Source of the DNA: Acinetobacter sp. 10FS3-1
GTDB taxonomy: Bacteria; Pseudomonadota; Gammaproteobacteria; Pseudomonadales; Moraxellaceae
Length of the DNA stretch: 64,000 nt
Direction: 5' to 3'
Assembly: GCF_013343215.1 (NCBI RefSeq)
Contig: NZ_CP039143.1
Location: 62,001-126,000, forward strand
The notes below the pieces were generated by a model. It was not told the origin of the DNA and searched no databases. It saw only the letters and a list, made by a program, of their open reading frames with translations. Position numbers and translations under genes: made by a program. This document shows positions 2,210 through 61,451 of the stretch, piece after piece (positions within the stretch are counted from its first letter, which is position 1; every line of letters starts with the position of its first letter).

Positions 2210-2410
2210 ATGCTTAAACAAAATATCTGTGTTAAAGATCAGTTTGGGGTTAAATACTCCATACAAGCTACTTTTAATGATCATGCTTCTAATTTTCATT
2301 CTAATGTAAAACATATCACGGTAGAGGGTGAAAATATCCGCCCCAGTCTTGAAATGTTGTTTAAAAGTGGGTTAAGTGGGAAAATTTTCAAAATTTTATC
2401 CTTAATTTAA
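2210..2410 (+). CDS. Small hypothetical protein, possible paralogue of the preceding gene
   Basis: I do not recognise this 66-residue product. It begins with ATG after a weak GAGA ribosome site. Its N-terminus (MLKQNICVKDQFG) is alignable with that of the gene at 1914, and it is about ten residues shorter. It is basic, with no membrane segment or signal peptide. Just beyond its stop the sequence becomes decayed insertion-sequence DNA, so its C-terminus may be altered by that insertion. Function unknown. Confidence 0.45.
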   Translation: MLKQNICVKDQFGVKYSIQATFNDHASNFHSNVKHITVEGENIRPSLEMLFKSGLSGKIFKILSLI

Positions 2411-2479
2411 ATTTGCATGTGAAGTGTAATACCATGTTGTTGTCATCCTGCCTGACTCGGGCTGTTAAAGCCGCGTCTT

Positions 2480-2945
2480 TTTCTCGAACGATGATTCAAA
2501 CATGGCATGGTTTTTGAAAGCTATGCATCCGTATCGTCATCCAAATCGCTGACTTTTCTAATAATCCTCTGATTAAGCCATTGGTATTTTTCTTCGAGTC
2601 TTGTTGCCAAGCGCTATAGACATCAGCAAAATATTCATTTATCTCTCTTTCTTCAGCAGCAGGTTCATGCAGGCTGAACTCCTTACCATTGTCTGCGGTA
2701 ATGATTTTTAGCAGATCTTGGATAGGTTGGAACAGACGGATTGTGGTTTGGCAGATTTTCTCTGCCTGAGGTGAGCGGCAATTTATTCAACCAGAGATAG
2801 CCTGTCTGCCGATCTTCAATCGAAACCAGTGCTTGCGAATGGTTTTCTTGCCCACCATTTATCTATTTCCAGATCAGCAAAGCCAGTCTACTGCTCAATT
2901 TTAATAAGCCGATCCTGAATACGTTTACACTTACTCAACGGGTGA
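2480..2945 (-). pseudogene. Decayed IS30-family transposase remnant
   Basis: No intact frame is present in the 678-base gap, but minus-strand translation in several frames gives recognisable IS30-type pieces in the right order: WEID-like and EDRQTGYLWLNKL-like segments, then TADNGKEF with the catalytic D, then YFADVYSAWQQ and NTNGLIRG. This is the DDE core of IS30-family transposases. Stops and frameshifts separate the pieces, both ends are missing and no inverted repeats could be found. It is an old inactive insertion between the cold-shock locus and the SPOR-domain gene. Confidence 0.75.
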
Positions 2946-3047
2946 CGGGTTCCAGAAAAGCCCTCCATCGGATAGGGCATAAATCTGATATTTTTCTTCC
3001 TTTCCCTATTTTAAGCTCTGTTGCATTGTATTTGAAAATTCAAGCAA

Positions 3048-3076
3048 TAAAAAAAGCACCATTTGGCGCTTTTTTT
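3048..3076 (-). terminator. Terminator downstream of the SPOR-domain gene
   Basis: An A-run, a near-perfect AGCACC/GGCGCT stem with an ATTT loop and a T-run lie 13 bases beyond the stop of the minus-strand gene at 3089. The structure is symmetrical. Confidence 0.8.
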
Positions 3077-28192: not shown

Positions 28193-28843
28193 ATGTCAAC
28201 GCCAGCTCAGTTTAACCCGCAAGCTTTTATCGAACTCGCATTATCACGTGGTGTGCTTAAATTTGGTGAGTTTACTTTAAAATCGGGTCGTGTGAGCCCT
28301 TATTTTTTTAATGCCGGCTTGTTAAATGATGGCGAAGCCTTGTCTCTCTTGGCATCAGGCTATGCAGCCAAGCTGATGCAATGTGATCAGGTCGAAGTGG
28401 TTTTTGGTCCGGCATATAAAGGTATTCCATTTGTTGCTGCAACTGCGGTCGCACTGTCGCAAAATCATGGTGTGAGTATACCTTGGGGCTTTAACCGTAA
28501 AGAAGCTAAAGATCACGGTGAAGGTGGCGTATTGGTCGGAGCTTCGGTTGAAGGTAAAAAAGTCTGGATTATTGATGATGTGATTACTGCCGGAACTGCG
28601 ATCCGTGAAGTGGTCACTATTCTGAAAAATGCCGGTGCACAAATTGCCGGGGTACTGGTTGCGTTAGATCGTCAGGAAAAAGGTCAGGGCGAACTTTCTG
28701 CAATCCAAGAAGTCCAAAAAGAACTTGAAATTCCAGTACATGCACTGATCACCATGAAAGACTTAATGGATTATCTGGATGGTAAAGGCGAGCAGGAAGC
28801 ACTGGCAAAAATGGAAGCCTATCGCGTTAAATACGGTATTTAA
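28193..28843 (+). CDS. pyrE: Orotate phosphoribosyltransferase
   Basis: PyrE makes orotidine monophosphate from orotate and PRPP in pyrimidine synthesis. The 216-residue product has the PRPP-binding motif [16 protein letters not shown], the [10 protein letters not shown] loop and the flexible catalytic loop [12 protein letters not shown]. Length is normal. AGGAG at good spacing fixes the ATG. It is divergent from crc with only 40 bases between, so the promoters overlap. A terminator follows. Confidence 0.97.
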
Positions 28844-28865
28844 ACCGGTATAGCTAGCAGTGGAT

Positions 28866-28889
28866 AAGGAAGCTCAGGCTTCCTTTTTT
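28866..28889 (+). terminator. Terminator of pyrE
   Basis: AAGGAAGC, a CTCAG loop region and GCTTCCTT followed by Ts lie shortly after pyrE. Confidence 0.85.
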
Positions 28890-29070
28890 ATGACTTTAAA
28901 GCAGCCAGAACACCTGATTGTCTCACTATCCATGAAAACCTAGACAATTTTGCTGGCCAAAAAAATCGTATCTGTCGACCTGATGGGCATATTCTGAGCA
29001 AAAAGTGTTAAGGAGAATTATCATTTTAAATGGGGAACATCGGATAAAAATATAGTCTATTTATAGCTTT

Positions 29071-29229
29071 TTATTGACTTAACTGTTGAGACCCTCTTTC
29101 TTTTAATTTCTTTAGCCAACCCAAAAGCTGAACCGCTTTAACAGATAGTCGCTTATCTCCGGCCGTTACTCCAACAGGATCCGTTCGTCCAGGGAACAGA
29201 TCTTTAATTTGCCCCCCACTGATTATCTC
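29071..29229 (-). pseudogene. C-terminal gene fragment inside the Tn7-like remnant
   Basis: A minus-strand open frame of 52 codons with no start codon ends in a normal stop. The translated tail includes LFPGRTDPVGVTAG and VQLLGWLKKLKERG, which reads like genuine protein. It lies directly downstream of the truncated tnsA on the same strand, so it may be the end of another transposition or cargo gene of the same element, joined by a deletion. I cannot name the family. Confidence 0.45.
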
Positions 29230-29286
29230 TTAATACCTAGCGTTTACTCATAAAAGTATAGTGGGCACAAGGTGGTTTCTCTCAAG

Positions 29287-29517
29287 TTAATTGATGACAC
29301 GCCTTAGTAATAGAAAAGTGGACAGTTCTAGATCAGAGAGCAAGTGATGAGTTCTTTGGCTTTTATGACCAAAAACTCGGTGAGATCGACCTTCTAAACT
29401 CACATCTCGAATTGTGAGCCAAGGCTTATAGTTATTTCCAAAACCCTGCCCTCGTCCTTCTTTAATCCACTTTTGAATTTTGAGTTCATGATTTTGTGTG
29501 TTCTTAGAATTAGCCAT
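29287..29517 (-). pseudogene. tnsA: Truncated tnsA, Tn7-like heteromeric transposase subunit
   Basis: Only the first about 70 residues of a TnsA-type protein remain: KWIKEGRGQG, YKPWLTIRDV, GRSHRVFGHK and HLLSDLELS align with the N-terminus of Tn7 TnsA. Full TnsA is about 270 residues and carries catalytic E, D and K. The D and K lie beyond the break, so the protein is inactive. The frame runs into unrelated sequence (RRVIN) and stops. The start is the ATG reading MANSKN at 29517, immediately behind a hairpin, as in Tn7. It begins 128 bases inside the element end and points away from glmS, the native Tn7 arrangement. Confidence 0.85.
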
Positions 29518-29568
29518 AAAAAAATCCACACAACATGCTTTTTAGAGCATATCTTGTGTGGATTTTTT
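29518..29568. terminator. Hairpin between the Tn7-like right end and tnsA
   Basis: A long stem (AATCCACACAA against TTGTGTGGATT, continued by CATGCT/AGCAT) flanked by A and T runs precedes the tnsA start codon. Tn7 has a hairpin at the same place. It probably insulates tnsA from glmS read-through. Confidence 0.75.
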
Positions 29569-29580
29569 GAGCAATATAGT

Positions 29581-29640
29581 ATTACACTTTATTACTCAGT
29601 ATGAGACTTTATTACTTGGTATGAAGCTTTATTACTCTCA
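29581..29640. repeat. Three phased TnsB-type binding repeats of the Tn7-like right end
   Basis: Three units of exactly 20 bases share the core CTTTATTACT; read on the minus strand they are AATAAAG-type sites like the TnsB sites of Tn7 (AATAAAGTCT). The outermost copy continues into the element terminus. Overlapping TnsB sites spaced by about two helical turns are the mark of a Tn7 right end. Confidence 0.85.
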
Positions 29641-29641
29641 T

Positions 29642-29649
29642 ACAATAAC
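29642..29649. mobile_element. Outer terminus of a Tn7-like element at attTn7
   Basis: The plus strand reads ACA (TGT on the element strand) at 29642-29644, followed by ATAAC as the presumed five-base target copy. Exactly 25 bases lie between the last base of the glmS stop codon and this terminus, the classical attTn7 insertion distance. The matching left end was not found in the window, so the element is a decayed one-ended remnant. Confidence 0.8.
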
Positions 29650-29669
29650 CAGCCTTGCTTCAATTCTGA

Positions 29670-31508
29670 TTATTCTACGGTCACTGATTTTGCCAGGTTA
29701 CGCGGTTGATCTACATCCGTACCCCGCAGGACGGCTACATGATAAGACAGCAACTGAACCGGAATGCTATAGACGATAGGGGCTAAAAGTGGATCTATTT
29801 CAGGAATATGCACCACATGCTGGCGTTCTTTGGCCTTGATGCCGCTATGCTCATCAGCAAAGACAAATAACTCGCCACCACGTGCCTGAACTTCTTCCAT
29901 ATTGGATTTTAATTTGTCCAGCATGTCATCCTGCGGTGCCAGAATGACCACAGGCATATCATTATCCACCAGTGCCAGCGGGCCATGTTTCAGTTCACCT
30001 GCTGCATAGCCTTCTGCATGGATATAGGAAATTTCTTTCAGTTTCAACGCACCTTCAAGCGCGATCGGGAAATGCGTCCCACGGCCGAGGAACAGACAAT
30101 GGTTTTTTTCTACAAACAGTTCAGACAGGCGCAGAATTTCATCATCATAACGCAGGGTGTCCAGAATCACTTTAGGAGTATGCCAGAGCCCGGTCGTAAT
30201 CGCGGTAACCTGTTCCGTTGAAATCGTGTTTTTGACAGTACCGATTTTCAGTACCAGCAACATCAATGCAGTCAACTGGGTGGTAAAAGCTTTGGTCGAT
30301 GCGACCCCAATTTCAGGTCCTGCCAAGGTCAGCAAGCTGTGCTCAGTTTCACGTACCATCGACGATGTAGCCACGTTACAGATGGTCATTGTGCTGATGT
30401 CTAAACCTTTGGCCTGAGCGCGTTTCTGCGTATCGCGTAAGGCCGCCAGGGTATCTGCGGTTTCACCGGACTGAGAAATACAGACATACAGGGTGTGATT
30501 TACAATCACTGGCGTGCGGTAACGGAATTCACTGGCAATTTCAACCTGACAAGGCAGGCCGATCAGCTGCTCAAACCAGTATTTGGCAATCATACCGGCA
30601 TGGTAGCTGGTCCCACAAGCAATGATCTGAATCTGCTGGATCTTGGAAAAATCCTGCTCTGCACTAACCAGAAAGTCTTCACGCAGGGCATTTCCATTGA
30701 GTGCTTGGGAAATGGTTTGCTGGATGGCTTCAGGCTGCTCATAAATTTCTTTGAGCATATAGTGCTTGTATTCGCCTTTAGAGGCATTACTCACCGCAGC
30801 ATCCAGTTCTTTCACCGGACGCTCAACCAGTTGACCATCCACAAACACTTCAATCGTGCTACGAGTCAAACGGGCAATATCCCCTTCTTCCAGGTAGATA
30901 AAGCGGTTGGTAATCGGCAGCAGGGCCAACTGGTCAGAACTGATAAAGTTTTCACCAATTCCAACCCCAATCACCAGTGGTGAGCCTTCACGCACCGTGA
31001 TTAACTCATCCGGATGATCGGTATGAACAATACCCAGTGCATACGCGCCTTTTAGTTGTGGCACCACCTGTTTTACCGCTTCCAGTAAAATCGGGGTCGA
31101 TTTCAGTGCATCATTGACCAGATGGGCAACGACTTCAGTATCAGTCTGTGAAGTGAATACATAACCTAGAGCTTCAAGGTCATCTTTCAGCTCTTGATAG
31201 TTCTCGATAATGCCGTTATGTACCACAGCCACATTGCCGGAGATATGCGGATGGGCATTGTTCTCAGTCGGCTTGCCATGTGTGGCCCAGCGGGTATGGG
31301 CAATCCCGAGCGAACCAATAATCTGTGATTCATTGACTGCATTTTCAAGGTTGGCAACCTTGCCGACACGACGTTCACGTAGAACCTGATTCTGGTTAAT
31401 CAGGGCTAAGCCGGCTGAGTCATAGCCACGGTATTCAAGACGTTTCAGGCCTTCAATTAAAATATTGGTAATGCTGCGTTCCGCAATGCCACCGACGATA
31501 CCACACAT
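29670..31508 (-). CDS. glmS: Glutamine-fructose-6-phosphate aminotransferase
   Basis: GlmS makes glucosamine-6-phosphate for peptidoglycan and lipopolysaccharide. The 612-residue protein starts MCGIVGGIAER, with the N-terminal Cys nucleophile of the glutaminase domain, and continues with two SIS sugar-isomerase domains (CGTSYHAGM, SQSGETADTLAAL) and the C-terminal VDQPRNLAKSVTVE. The 3' end is the recognition site for Tn7 TnsD proteins and is well conserved here. It follows glmU by 11 bases as the last gene of the ribB-to-glmS cluster. Confidence 0.98.
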   Translation of the reverse strand: MCGIVGGIAERSITNILIEGLKRLEYRGYDSAGLALINQNQVLRERRVGKVANLENAVNESQIIGSLGIAHTRWATHGKPTENNAHPHISGNVAVVHNGIIENYQELKDDLEALGYVFTSQTDTEVVAHLVNDALKSTPILLEAVKQVVPQLKGAYALGIVHTDHPDELITVREGSPLVIGVGIGENFISSDQLALLPITNRFIYLEEGDIARLTRSTIEVFVDGQLVERPVKELDAAVSNASKGEYKHYMLKEIYEQPEAIQQTISQALNGNALREDFLVSAEQDFSKIQQIQIIACGTSYHAGMIAKYWFEQLIGLPCQVEIASEFRYRTPVIVNHTLYVCISQSGETADTLAALRDTQKRAQAKGLDISTMTICNVATSSMVRETEHSLLTLAGPEIGVASTKAFTTQLTALMLLVLKIGTVKNTISTEQVTAITTGLWHTPKVILDTLRYDDEILRLSELFVEKNHCLFLGRGTHFPIALEGALKLKEISYIHAEGYAAGELKHGPLALVDNDMPVVILAPQDDMLDKLKSNMEEVQARGGELFVFADEHSGIKAKERQHVVHIPEIDPLLAPIVYSIPVQLLSYHVAVLRGTDVDQPRNLAKSVTVE

Positions 31509-60202: not shown

Positions 60203-61134
60203 TTAGGCCACCTGACCTAACGGATTAATCTTATCATAGTAGATTGCTTCAAACTCAAAAGGTGATACATAACCCAGTGCACTATGTACACGTTCTTTAT
60301 TGAACCAATCTACCCAGTTTAGTGTCGCAAGTTGTACATCTGCTAAACCTTGCCAATCTGCTTTTAAATATTCAATCACCTCTGTTTTGTATAAGCCATT
60401 CACCGTTTCAGCCAAAGCATTATCGTATGAATCACCAGTCGTACCGACTGATGCTCGTAAATTTGCTGCTTCTAAACGATTGGTATAACGAATGGAAAGA
60501 TATTGCACACCTCTGTCGGAATGATGAATCACATTCTTTGGCATGCCTCGGTCATGCAATGCTTGCTCCAATGCATCGAGCACCATGTCTGTATTCATAC
60601 GTGTTGATACTTTCCATCCAACAATTGCTCGTGAGAACACATCAATAATAAAGGCGGTATAGACCCAACCTGAATTGGTTTGAATATACGTGAAGTCAGC
60701 GACCTGAGAAGCACTGCTTCGCAAGGGTCAGGTCGATCAGCACTAAAATTCCGTTTCACCAAGTCATCCGCTCGTTTTTGATCATCTCTGCTACGGGTCG
60801 TTTGTTTATTCTTCCCACGCCAAACACCTTGTATACCTAGCTTTTGCATCAATCGAGCAACTGTACAGCGCGCAATAACATAGCCTTCACGTTTCAGTTT
60901 TTGCCAGACCTTACGCACACCATATCGACCTGAACTTTCTCTCCAAATTCGTTTAATTTGTTCAGCATGATGCAAGTCATGTAAATCTCGTTTCGCTCGA
61001 TGTTCCCTTGCGAAGCAATGCTTCTCATCCGCGAGATCTAAAGTCCGGTAATAGGTTGAAGGGGCGATCGGTAAAATCCTACAAATCGCATCAACGCCAT
61101 ACAGCTCTTTATTATTATGGATAAAATCCACCAT
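60203..61134 (-). pseudogene. IS3-family transposase orfB, frameshifted
   Basis: The N-terminal part (60595-61134) has the HTH_21 region (ELYGVDAICRILPIAPSTYY, SGRYGVRKVWQKLKREGY). The C-terminal part (60203-60724) carries the integrase-core DDE residues (VADFTYIQTNSGWVY, VIHHSDRGVQY, ETVNGLYKTEVIEY). The frame breaks at about 60707-60728, where a 22-base segment centred on the palindrome AAGCACTGCTT stands in place of the expected coding bases. A second near-copy of the segment occurs in frame at 61005-61026. The transposase is therefore probably inactive. Confidence 0.87.
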
Positions 61135-61451
61135 TATTTGTGTGGGCGGTCGAGCTCCGCCTGGGCGAAAAAAGCAGCTGCTTTGCGTAGAATTTCATTG
61201 GCACGCTTTAATTCTTTGATTTCACGTTCCATTTGCTTCATTTTTTCTTGATCTGAAAGCTGCTGTACTTTGATTGGATTTTGTTGAGCCAAATGCTTCT
61301 GATGCCAGGAACGTAGTGTTTCAGGCGTACAGCCAATCTTGGGTGCAATTGCTGTGATTGCAGCCCAATTCGATGGATAATCTTTTTCGGATTCAATCAA
61401 TAATTGAACCGCTCTATCTCTGATTTCAGGGGGATATTTGGGTTTTTTCAT
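61134..61451 (-). CDS. IS3-family transposase orfA
   Basis: The 105-residue protein has a helix-turn-helix (WAAITAIAPKIGCTPETLRSW) and a leucine-zipper-like coiled coil (EKMKQMEREIKELKRANEIL), standard for IS3 OrfA. It binds the element ends and forms OrfAB by ribosomal frameshifting. The TTTTTTC run near its end (about 61170) could be the slippery site. Its stop overlaps the orfB start. It appears intact. Confidence 0.9.
   Translation of the reverse strand: MKKPKYPPEIRDRAVQLLIESEKDYPSNWAAITAIAPKIGCTPETLRSWHQKHLAQQNPIKVQQLSDQEKMKQMEREIKELKRANEILRKAAAFFAQAELDRPHK

Follow-up and report, generated by a model that had tools for sequence, protein, structure and literature searches.

The locus downstream of glmS

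The window, that is, the whole 64,000-nucleotide stretch of the Acinetobacter sp. 10FS3-1 genome that was analyzed, contains glmS and pyrE in opposite orientations, with the following features at and between them:

29670..31508, minus strand: glmS, a 612-aa open reading frame with SIS and GATase domains, the 3' end of which defines attTn7
29645..29669, minus strand: spacer of 25 nt between the glmS stop codon and the element terminus
29578..29644, minus strand: right-end TGT terminus and three 20-nt putative TnsB-type repeats
29519..29568, minus strand: hairpin between the right end and tnsA, a possible intrinsic terminator for glmS
29307..29517, minus strand: tnsA, truncated to its first 70 codons, identified by TnsA homology
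29132..29306, minus strand: left end of an IS5-family element, truncated on its inner side, with an inverted repeat at 29291-29306
28890..29131, no strand assigned: junction segment at the rearrangement described below
28866..28885, plus strand: pyrE terminator, found in a terminator scan and common to pyrE of relatives
28193..28843, plus strand: pyrE, placed beside glmS by the rearrangement

A Tn7-type right end spans 29518-29644 on the minus strand. As stated in an earlier note on this DNA, the TGT terminus (TGTATGAGAG on the minus strand) starts at 29644, exactly 25 nt past the glmS stop codon; the terminus sequence TGTATGAGAGTAATAAAG, with its first base at 29644, is followed by the repeats, the hairpin and a frame that opens with ATG at 29517. 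The phased repeats and the hairpin reported in that note were both recovered: the repeats (29578-29597, 29598-29617 and 29618-29637) are spaced by 20 nt and show 80-85% identity to the reference copy, and the hairpin arms (29519-29536 and 29551-29568) are 94% complementary, with a predicted RNA fold of -24.2 kcal/mol (z -7.7; none of 200 shuffled sequences as good). The 18-nt terminus, with at most one mismatch, occurs 40 times in 28 of the 175 genomes of the genus set, compared to 0 occurrences of the reversed control, which excludes a chance origin.

The truncated frame is homologous to the solved Tn7 TnsA (E=2.1e-21 over 67 residues), in agreement with the earlier note, but the fragment is shorter than was assumed there: tnsA ends after 70 codons at 29306, where IS sequence starts. 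A Pfam search with the 80-aa open reading frame of the tnsA fragment alone matched no family. The 175 nt at 29132-29306 are the left end of an IS, a full copy of which is found on an Acinetobacter plasmid (85% identity; ends GGCGTGTCATCAATTA) and contains open reading frames that match DUF4096 and the DDE transposase, which are IS4/5-family transposase domains. At the window locus, only one end with its inverted repeat is present, the IS sequence breaking off at 29132. The adjacent segment (28890-29131) has no match among plasmids and only short ones in the genus, none of which is convincing (best E 9e-4). Beyond its own locus, a genus search with 28844-29140 hit nothing but the pyrE terminator, frequently at sites away from pyrE, and a candidate for the missing half of the element (C1:2000333-2000454, where C1 is the contig that holds the window), obtained by searching the same genome with the interval between the two genes, was rejected given that it covers the IS sequence only.

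Altogether, a TnsA homologue, a TGT terminus with phased repeats and the attTn7 site are present at the locus, and the feature is a real, decayed Tn7-like right end, belonging to a known kind of element. Unusual are the split of the locus by a rearrangement that flanks the replication origin and a possible handover of terminator function.

Relatives of the element in Acinetobacter and beyond

With the 70-residue TnsA fragment as the query, matches were detected in 41 of the 175 genus genomes, including the source genome itself. The fragment is 91-97% identical in eight other Acinetobacter genomes, six of which have an open tnsA frame of 282-285 aa and two a truncated one (111 and 77 aa); other truncated tnsA fragments occur in the genus. 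The right end is 89-96% identical in the same eight genomes and in G088, with shorter matches elsewhere. In particular, the elements of Acinetobacter sp. ANC 4805 (G121), G086, G099, G103 and A. puyangensis ANC 4466 (G076) resemble the one in the window with respect to TnsA, the right end and the site; those of G121 and G076 are whole, with complete tnsABCDE and both ends at a single glmS locus, whereas the window element is split and truncated. The Tns proteins of G121 match the TnsA N/C, Mu-transpos_C, TnsC_Int, TnsD/TniQ and TnsE_C families, and G076 contains open reading frames corresponding to tnsABCDE. The earlier note had suggested looking for an intact relative in other Acinetobacter, and two were thus found; its view that attTn7 holds the vestigial right end of a Tn7-like element, distinct in sequence from Tn7 itself, is borne out by the TnsA match, the relatives at glmS and the Pfam assignments in G121. 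The left end of G121 contains three spaced repeats, and 5-bp duplications were identified by eye in G121 (GTTAG), G086 (TATGT) and G076 (ATAAA).

Two observations on these relatives are of separate interest. The cargo of the intact elements (L054 3282-9946 and L064 5827-10533) includes open reading frames that resemble, by eye, a cytosine methylase and a GHKL ATPase, reminiscent of defense genes. In G086, a small insertion at the start of tnsB (L056:3243-3324) carries a right-end-like TGTATGAGAGTAATAAAG and repeats, and is perhaps a non-autonomous relative.

The Tn7 transposon of Escherichia coli shares with the window element the TGT terminus 25 nt after glmS, a repeat-bearing right end next to tnsA, and TnsA homology, and also has a hairpin before tnsA; unlike Tn7, the window element is represented by a fragment only, and its sequence is diverged. 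The number of repeats differs as well: there are three 20-nt repeats in the window, whereas the tns end of Tn7 has four sites that overlap (PMC8190619). Tn7-family transposons are already known in Acinetobacter. According to the respective descriptions, Tn6171 lies 25 bp downstream of glmS and has TGT/ACA ends, a 5-bp target duplication and added TnsB sites (PMC8190619), and Tn6553 lies downstream of glmS with a 5-bp duplication (PMC9605922). Compared by description only, both differ from the window element in being described as complete.

Exchange of two blocks around the replication origin

In many relatives, pgm is the gene after glmS, as in G163; among 139 genomes, 42 have the two genes no more than 500 nt apart. 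In the source genome, the neighbor is instead pyrE, at a distance of 826 bp; in all 73 other genomes compared, in which both genes lie on one contig, the distance is at least 39.7 kb, as judged by eye among the matches listed, with wrap-around considered only where the chromosome length was entered. In four of the seven pyrE regions of relatives, copB is located within about 1-3.6 kb of pyrE (G049, G048, G083 and G138); in the other three (G163, G117 and G133), gshB is near pyrE and a copB match is absent.

The contig starts with dnaA, identified by eye, and gene order was compared with that of G049, with dnaA set to zero; G067, which differs by several blocks, was discarded as a reference in favor of the clearer G049. 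The region of G049 from -151 to -117 kb is colinear with the source genome. The next block (-116..-83 kb) is inverted at 91..65 kb of the source genome, except for one 498-nt piece at 63 kb in the opposite orientation; the region from -83 to +62 kb is again colinear, with repeats that cross-match at about 25-31 kb on either side. The block at 62..109 kb is inverted at -74..-109 kb, with a small piece (106-107 kb) colinear at -86..-84 kb, and the region at 109-119 kb is colinear at 92-100 kb; farther out, only scattered matches are found in the sequence compared. Thus, relative to G049, two blocks that flank oriC are exchanged. The outer breakpoints of the exchange are the Tn7-like element and the gap between copB and pyrE, and the inner ones are at 2400-3050 of the window (C1:64.4-65.0 kb) and at about -73 kb of C1. 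No Rfam RNA and no obvious transposase open reading frame of 80 aa or longer were found at the inner breakpoint in the window. Because the region adjacent to oriC is colinear, a single inversion was rejected, and either two nested inversions or a block exchange is needed; two nested inversions spanning the origin would produce the observed arrangement.

Remnants of a related element beside pgm

Given that a Tn7-like insertion lies at a breakpoint of this rearrangement, the seemingly lost half of the element may sit elsewhere in the genome. The source genome was searched with the whole G121 element, and among the 40 of 68 candidates that were scored, four places matched: the window itself, C1:2851899-2852053 (the middle part of tnsA), C1:2857191-2857285 (the left end) and, weakly, C1:1368097 (cargo, 66%). 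No DNA match to the G121 tnsB-E genes was found among the same scored candidates. The contention of the earlier note that the element had lost most of its genes accordingly holds for tnsB-E, but the claim that it had lost its left end does not: a left end of the same family directly precedes pgm, with the tnsA piece, the left end and pgm all within C1:2851.9-2858.7 kb, although this left end may stem from a second insertion. The stretch from the tnsA piece to the left end contains genes for an AraC-type regulator, a short-chain dehydrogenase, an acetoacetate decarboxylase-like protein, a flavin oxidoreductase and a PF10118 protein, and the tnsA piece is preceded by a multicopper-oxidase-like open reading frame (copA, by eye) and copB.

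The remnants on the two sides could also result from two successive insertions, the stub in the window being the right end of the newer element and the left end beside pgm that of an older family member, with the sequence between them lost. The 5 nt next to each end are not the same (GTTAT for the right end in the window, AGAAA for the far left end), so that there is no 5-bp target-site duplication if both ends come from one insertion; the left end is more diverged (77% identity to G121 and 84% to G076) than the right end (92% and 89%); and in G086, G076 and G088, a new element is stacked on an older scar. On the other side of the balance, the far tnsA piece starts about where the window fragment stops, some 65 nt past its end (codon ~93 versus codon 70), and a search of the far side revealed no second right end. 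The lower similarity of the far piece (86% identity to G121, compared to 95% for the N-terminal part) is not decisive for an origin from another element and is compatible with a single one: in 10 pairs of intact relatives, the N-terminal part is 91-96% and the middle part 78-92% identical. We consider two insertions unlikely, albeit a serious competitor of a single split element.

Simple decay in place, with the left end and most genes deleted at attTn7, appears far less probable still: it would fit the truncated tnsA and IS as well as the truncated tnsA fragments elsewhere in the genus, but the gene order contradicts it, except in the case of an unrelated far half, since pgm, a left end and a tnsA piece lie across oriC and pyrE is an unusual neighbor of glmS.

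The glmS terminator and the right-end hairpin

At empty sites of close relatives, the point 25 nt past glmS is in the loop of a terminator hairpin (in G050, GGCTGG GGAA CCGGCC TTTTTT). The flanks of the G121 insertion, once joined, read AAGAAAGGAGGG TTAG CCCTCCTTTCTT, and the spacer in the window (29645..29669) contains the apparent left arm, AAGGCTGG, of the glmS terminator that is whole in close relatives. The pattern is not universal: in G159, the element sits past the second arm of the terminator rather than in its loop (compare G124), and the flanks in G072, G076 and G099 are among several without a clear half terminator. Insertion into the E. coli glmS terminator was reportedly described by Gay et al. 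in 1986.

With the terminator loop as the insertion point in the closest relatives, the hairpin of the right end may stand in for the native terminator. This hairpin carries A/U tracts and has a predicted energy of about -24 kcal/mol in both the source genome and G121; its U tract is the 3' arm of the stem, and a simple terminator scan of the window did not flag it. That the repeats and the hairpin are native sequence downstream of glmS rather than derived from the element is barely conceivable: this hairpin does follow glmS in some genomes without tnsA, but all 42 genomes with pgm within 500 nt show, by eye, a different short hairpin, and the terminus matches both ends of complete elements in relatives. 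Low-threshold Rfam matches were rejected, with scores below gathering. Elsewhere in the window (61060-61176, minus strand), an ALIL pseudoknot, a frameshifting element of IS3-family elements, scores above gathering.

The explanation that we favor, and hold to be highly probable, is that the locus carries the right end and the first quarter of tnsA of a Tn7-like element at attTn7, which was hit by an IS5-family element and split by the origin-flanking rearrangement, with the hairpin as the likely glmS terminator. Under this scenario, the element would have inserted at attTn7 inside the glmS terminator hairpin, at a site that can be read from the sequence; by analogy with close relatives, the route was probably TnsD-directed and the position the loop. 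The IS5-family element, one end of which is still recognizable, would then have landed in tnsA, and, as gene order shows, the rearrangement with breakpoints here and at copB/pyrE parted the right end from the rest, possibly with the IS as its cause. At the far junction, neither IS sequence nor a long repeat was detected that would point to the mechanism of recombination. The far side (C1:2851.9-2857.3 kb), with its tnsA piece, other genes and left end, would derive from the same insertion or from an older stacked one. The stub is presumably incapable of transposing by itself. Its hairpin follows glmS directly and has most likely taken over the termination of glmS transcripts from the native terminator.

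Scars of insertions and retention of the hairpin across the genus

The sequence downstream of glmS was surveyed in 139 of the 175 genomes (G075 was excluded for lack of an identified 3' end): 28 have tnsA within 500 nt, 42 pgm, and 69 neither, the latter including G155, with a few bases only. A 12-nt terminus with at most two mismatches, sought 17-33 nt past the stop codon, is present in 10 of the 110 genomes that lack tnsA and have more than 300 nt of sequence, always at 23-25 nt, compared to none in 2200 control windows and 0.14 expected from shuffled sequences; with up to three mismatches, there are 17, whereas the control windows predict 0.25 and shuffling 1.3. As judged by eye, a right end with the hairpin remains in G038 and G059; in G001, G035, G106, G123 and G077, two fused termini make up a palindrome of ~30-40 nt at the exact attTn7 position, resembling what 'nearly precise excision' of Tn10 leaves behind; in G135 and G089, the terminus is joined to another hairpin; and G080 is of no clear type. 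The earlier note had named, as a refuting observation, the presence of the same repeats in strains that never carried an element; the terminus-bearing genomes without tnsA are best interpreted as scars of elements at the same position. Thus, the Acinetobacter attTn7 retains readable scars of many insertions.

Retention of the hairpin was assessed against G086 in five genomes in which tnsA was not found within 500 nt of glmS (G059, G142, G169, G038 and G031); G058 and G005, which also match the right-end region, were outside this comparison. The shuffle-corrected identity is 0.64-0.90 for the hairpin, 0.06-0.21 for the whole repeat region and at most 0.10 for the former tnsA start. In the outer 42 nt, no more than a 2-22-nt stretch remains at its original position. 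The hairpin is, however, not the sole survivor: the innermost 28 nt next to it persist as well in all the scars but that of G031 (0.57-0.92 in the four, -0.02 in G031). When 13 hairpins are aligned, with three rows identical to G086 omitted, 93.5% of the cells pair and four pairs are changed on both sides; one inner pair is not kept, being unpaired in 10 of the 13. The covariation score is 0.103, compared to 0.058 for shuffled alignments (0/500), with the caveat that related sequences can exceed shuffles without structure. Among the 10 scars chosen by the terminus only, two keep the hairpin, and the five hairpin-keeping genomes were all found by similarity, so that the retention is partly a matter of ascertainment. 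Because of this mode of detection and the innermost repeat kept in four of the five scars, these data do no more than suggest selection for the hairpin in the five tnsA-less relatives.

More generally, Tn7-like elements might disrupt the terminator of an essential gene while supplying a substitute within their right end, and this hairpin would be kept by selection after the death of the element; such capture would have occurred repeatedly at the Acinetobacter attTn7, and the window would represent an early stage, following the origin-flanking rearrangement. We put this forward as a tentative and, on balance, rather doubtful generalization, the odds being lowered by the survival of the innermost repeat besides the hairpin in the four scars. 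Among the titles listed in a literature search that covered few subscription papers, none concerned split elements or terminator capture. The survival of an essential gene under repeated insertion at its terminator becomes testable.

One type of scar recurs, namely, the terminus followed by a ATATACTTAGTGAAATC-like sequence, which is seen at L088 (G135), L174 (G089) and L236 (G029) and in left flanks in L056 and L063; in G135 and G089, this sequence is followed by an AGATCTG hairpin.
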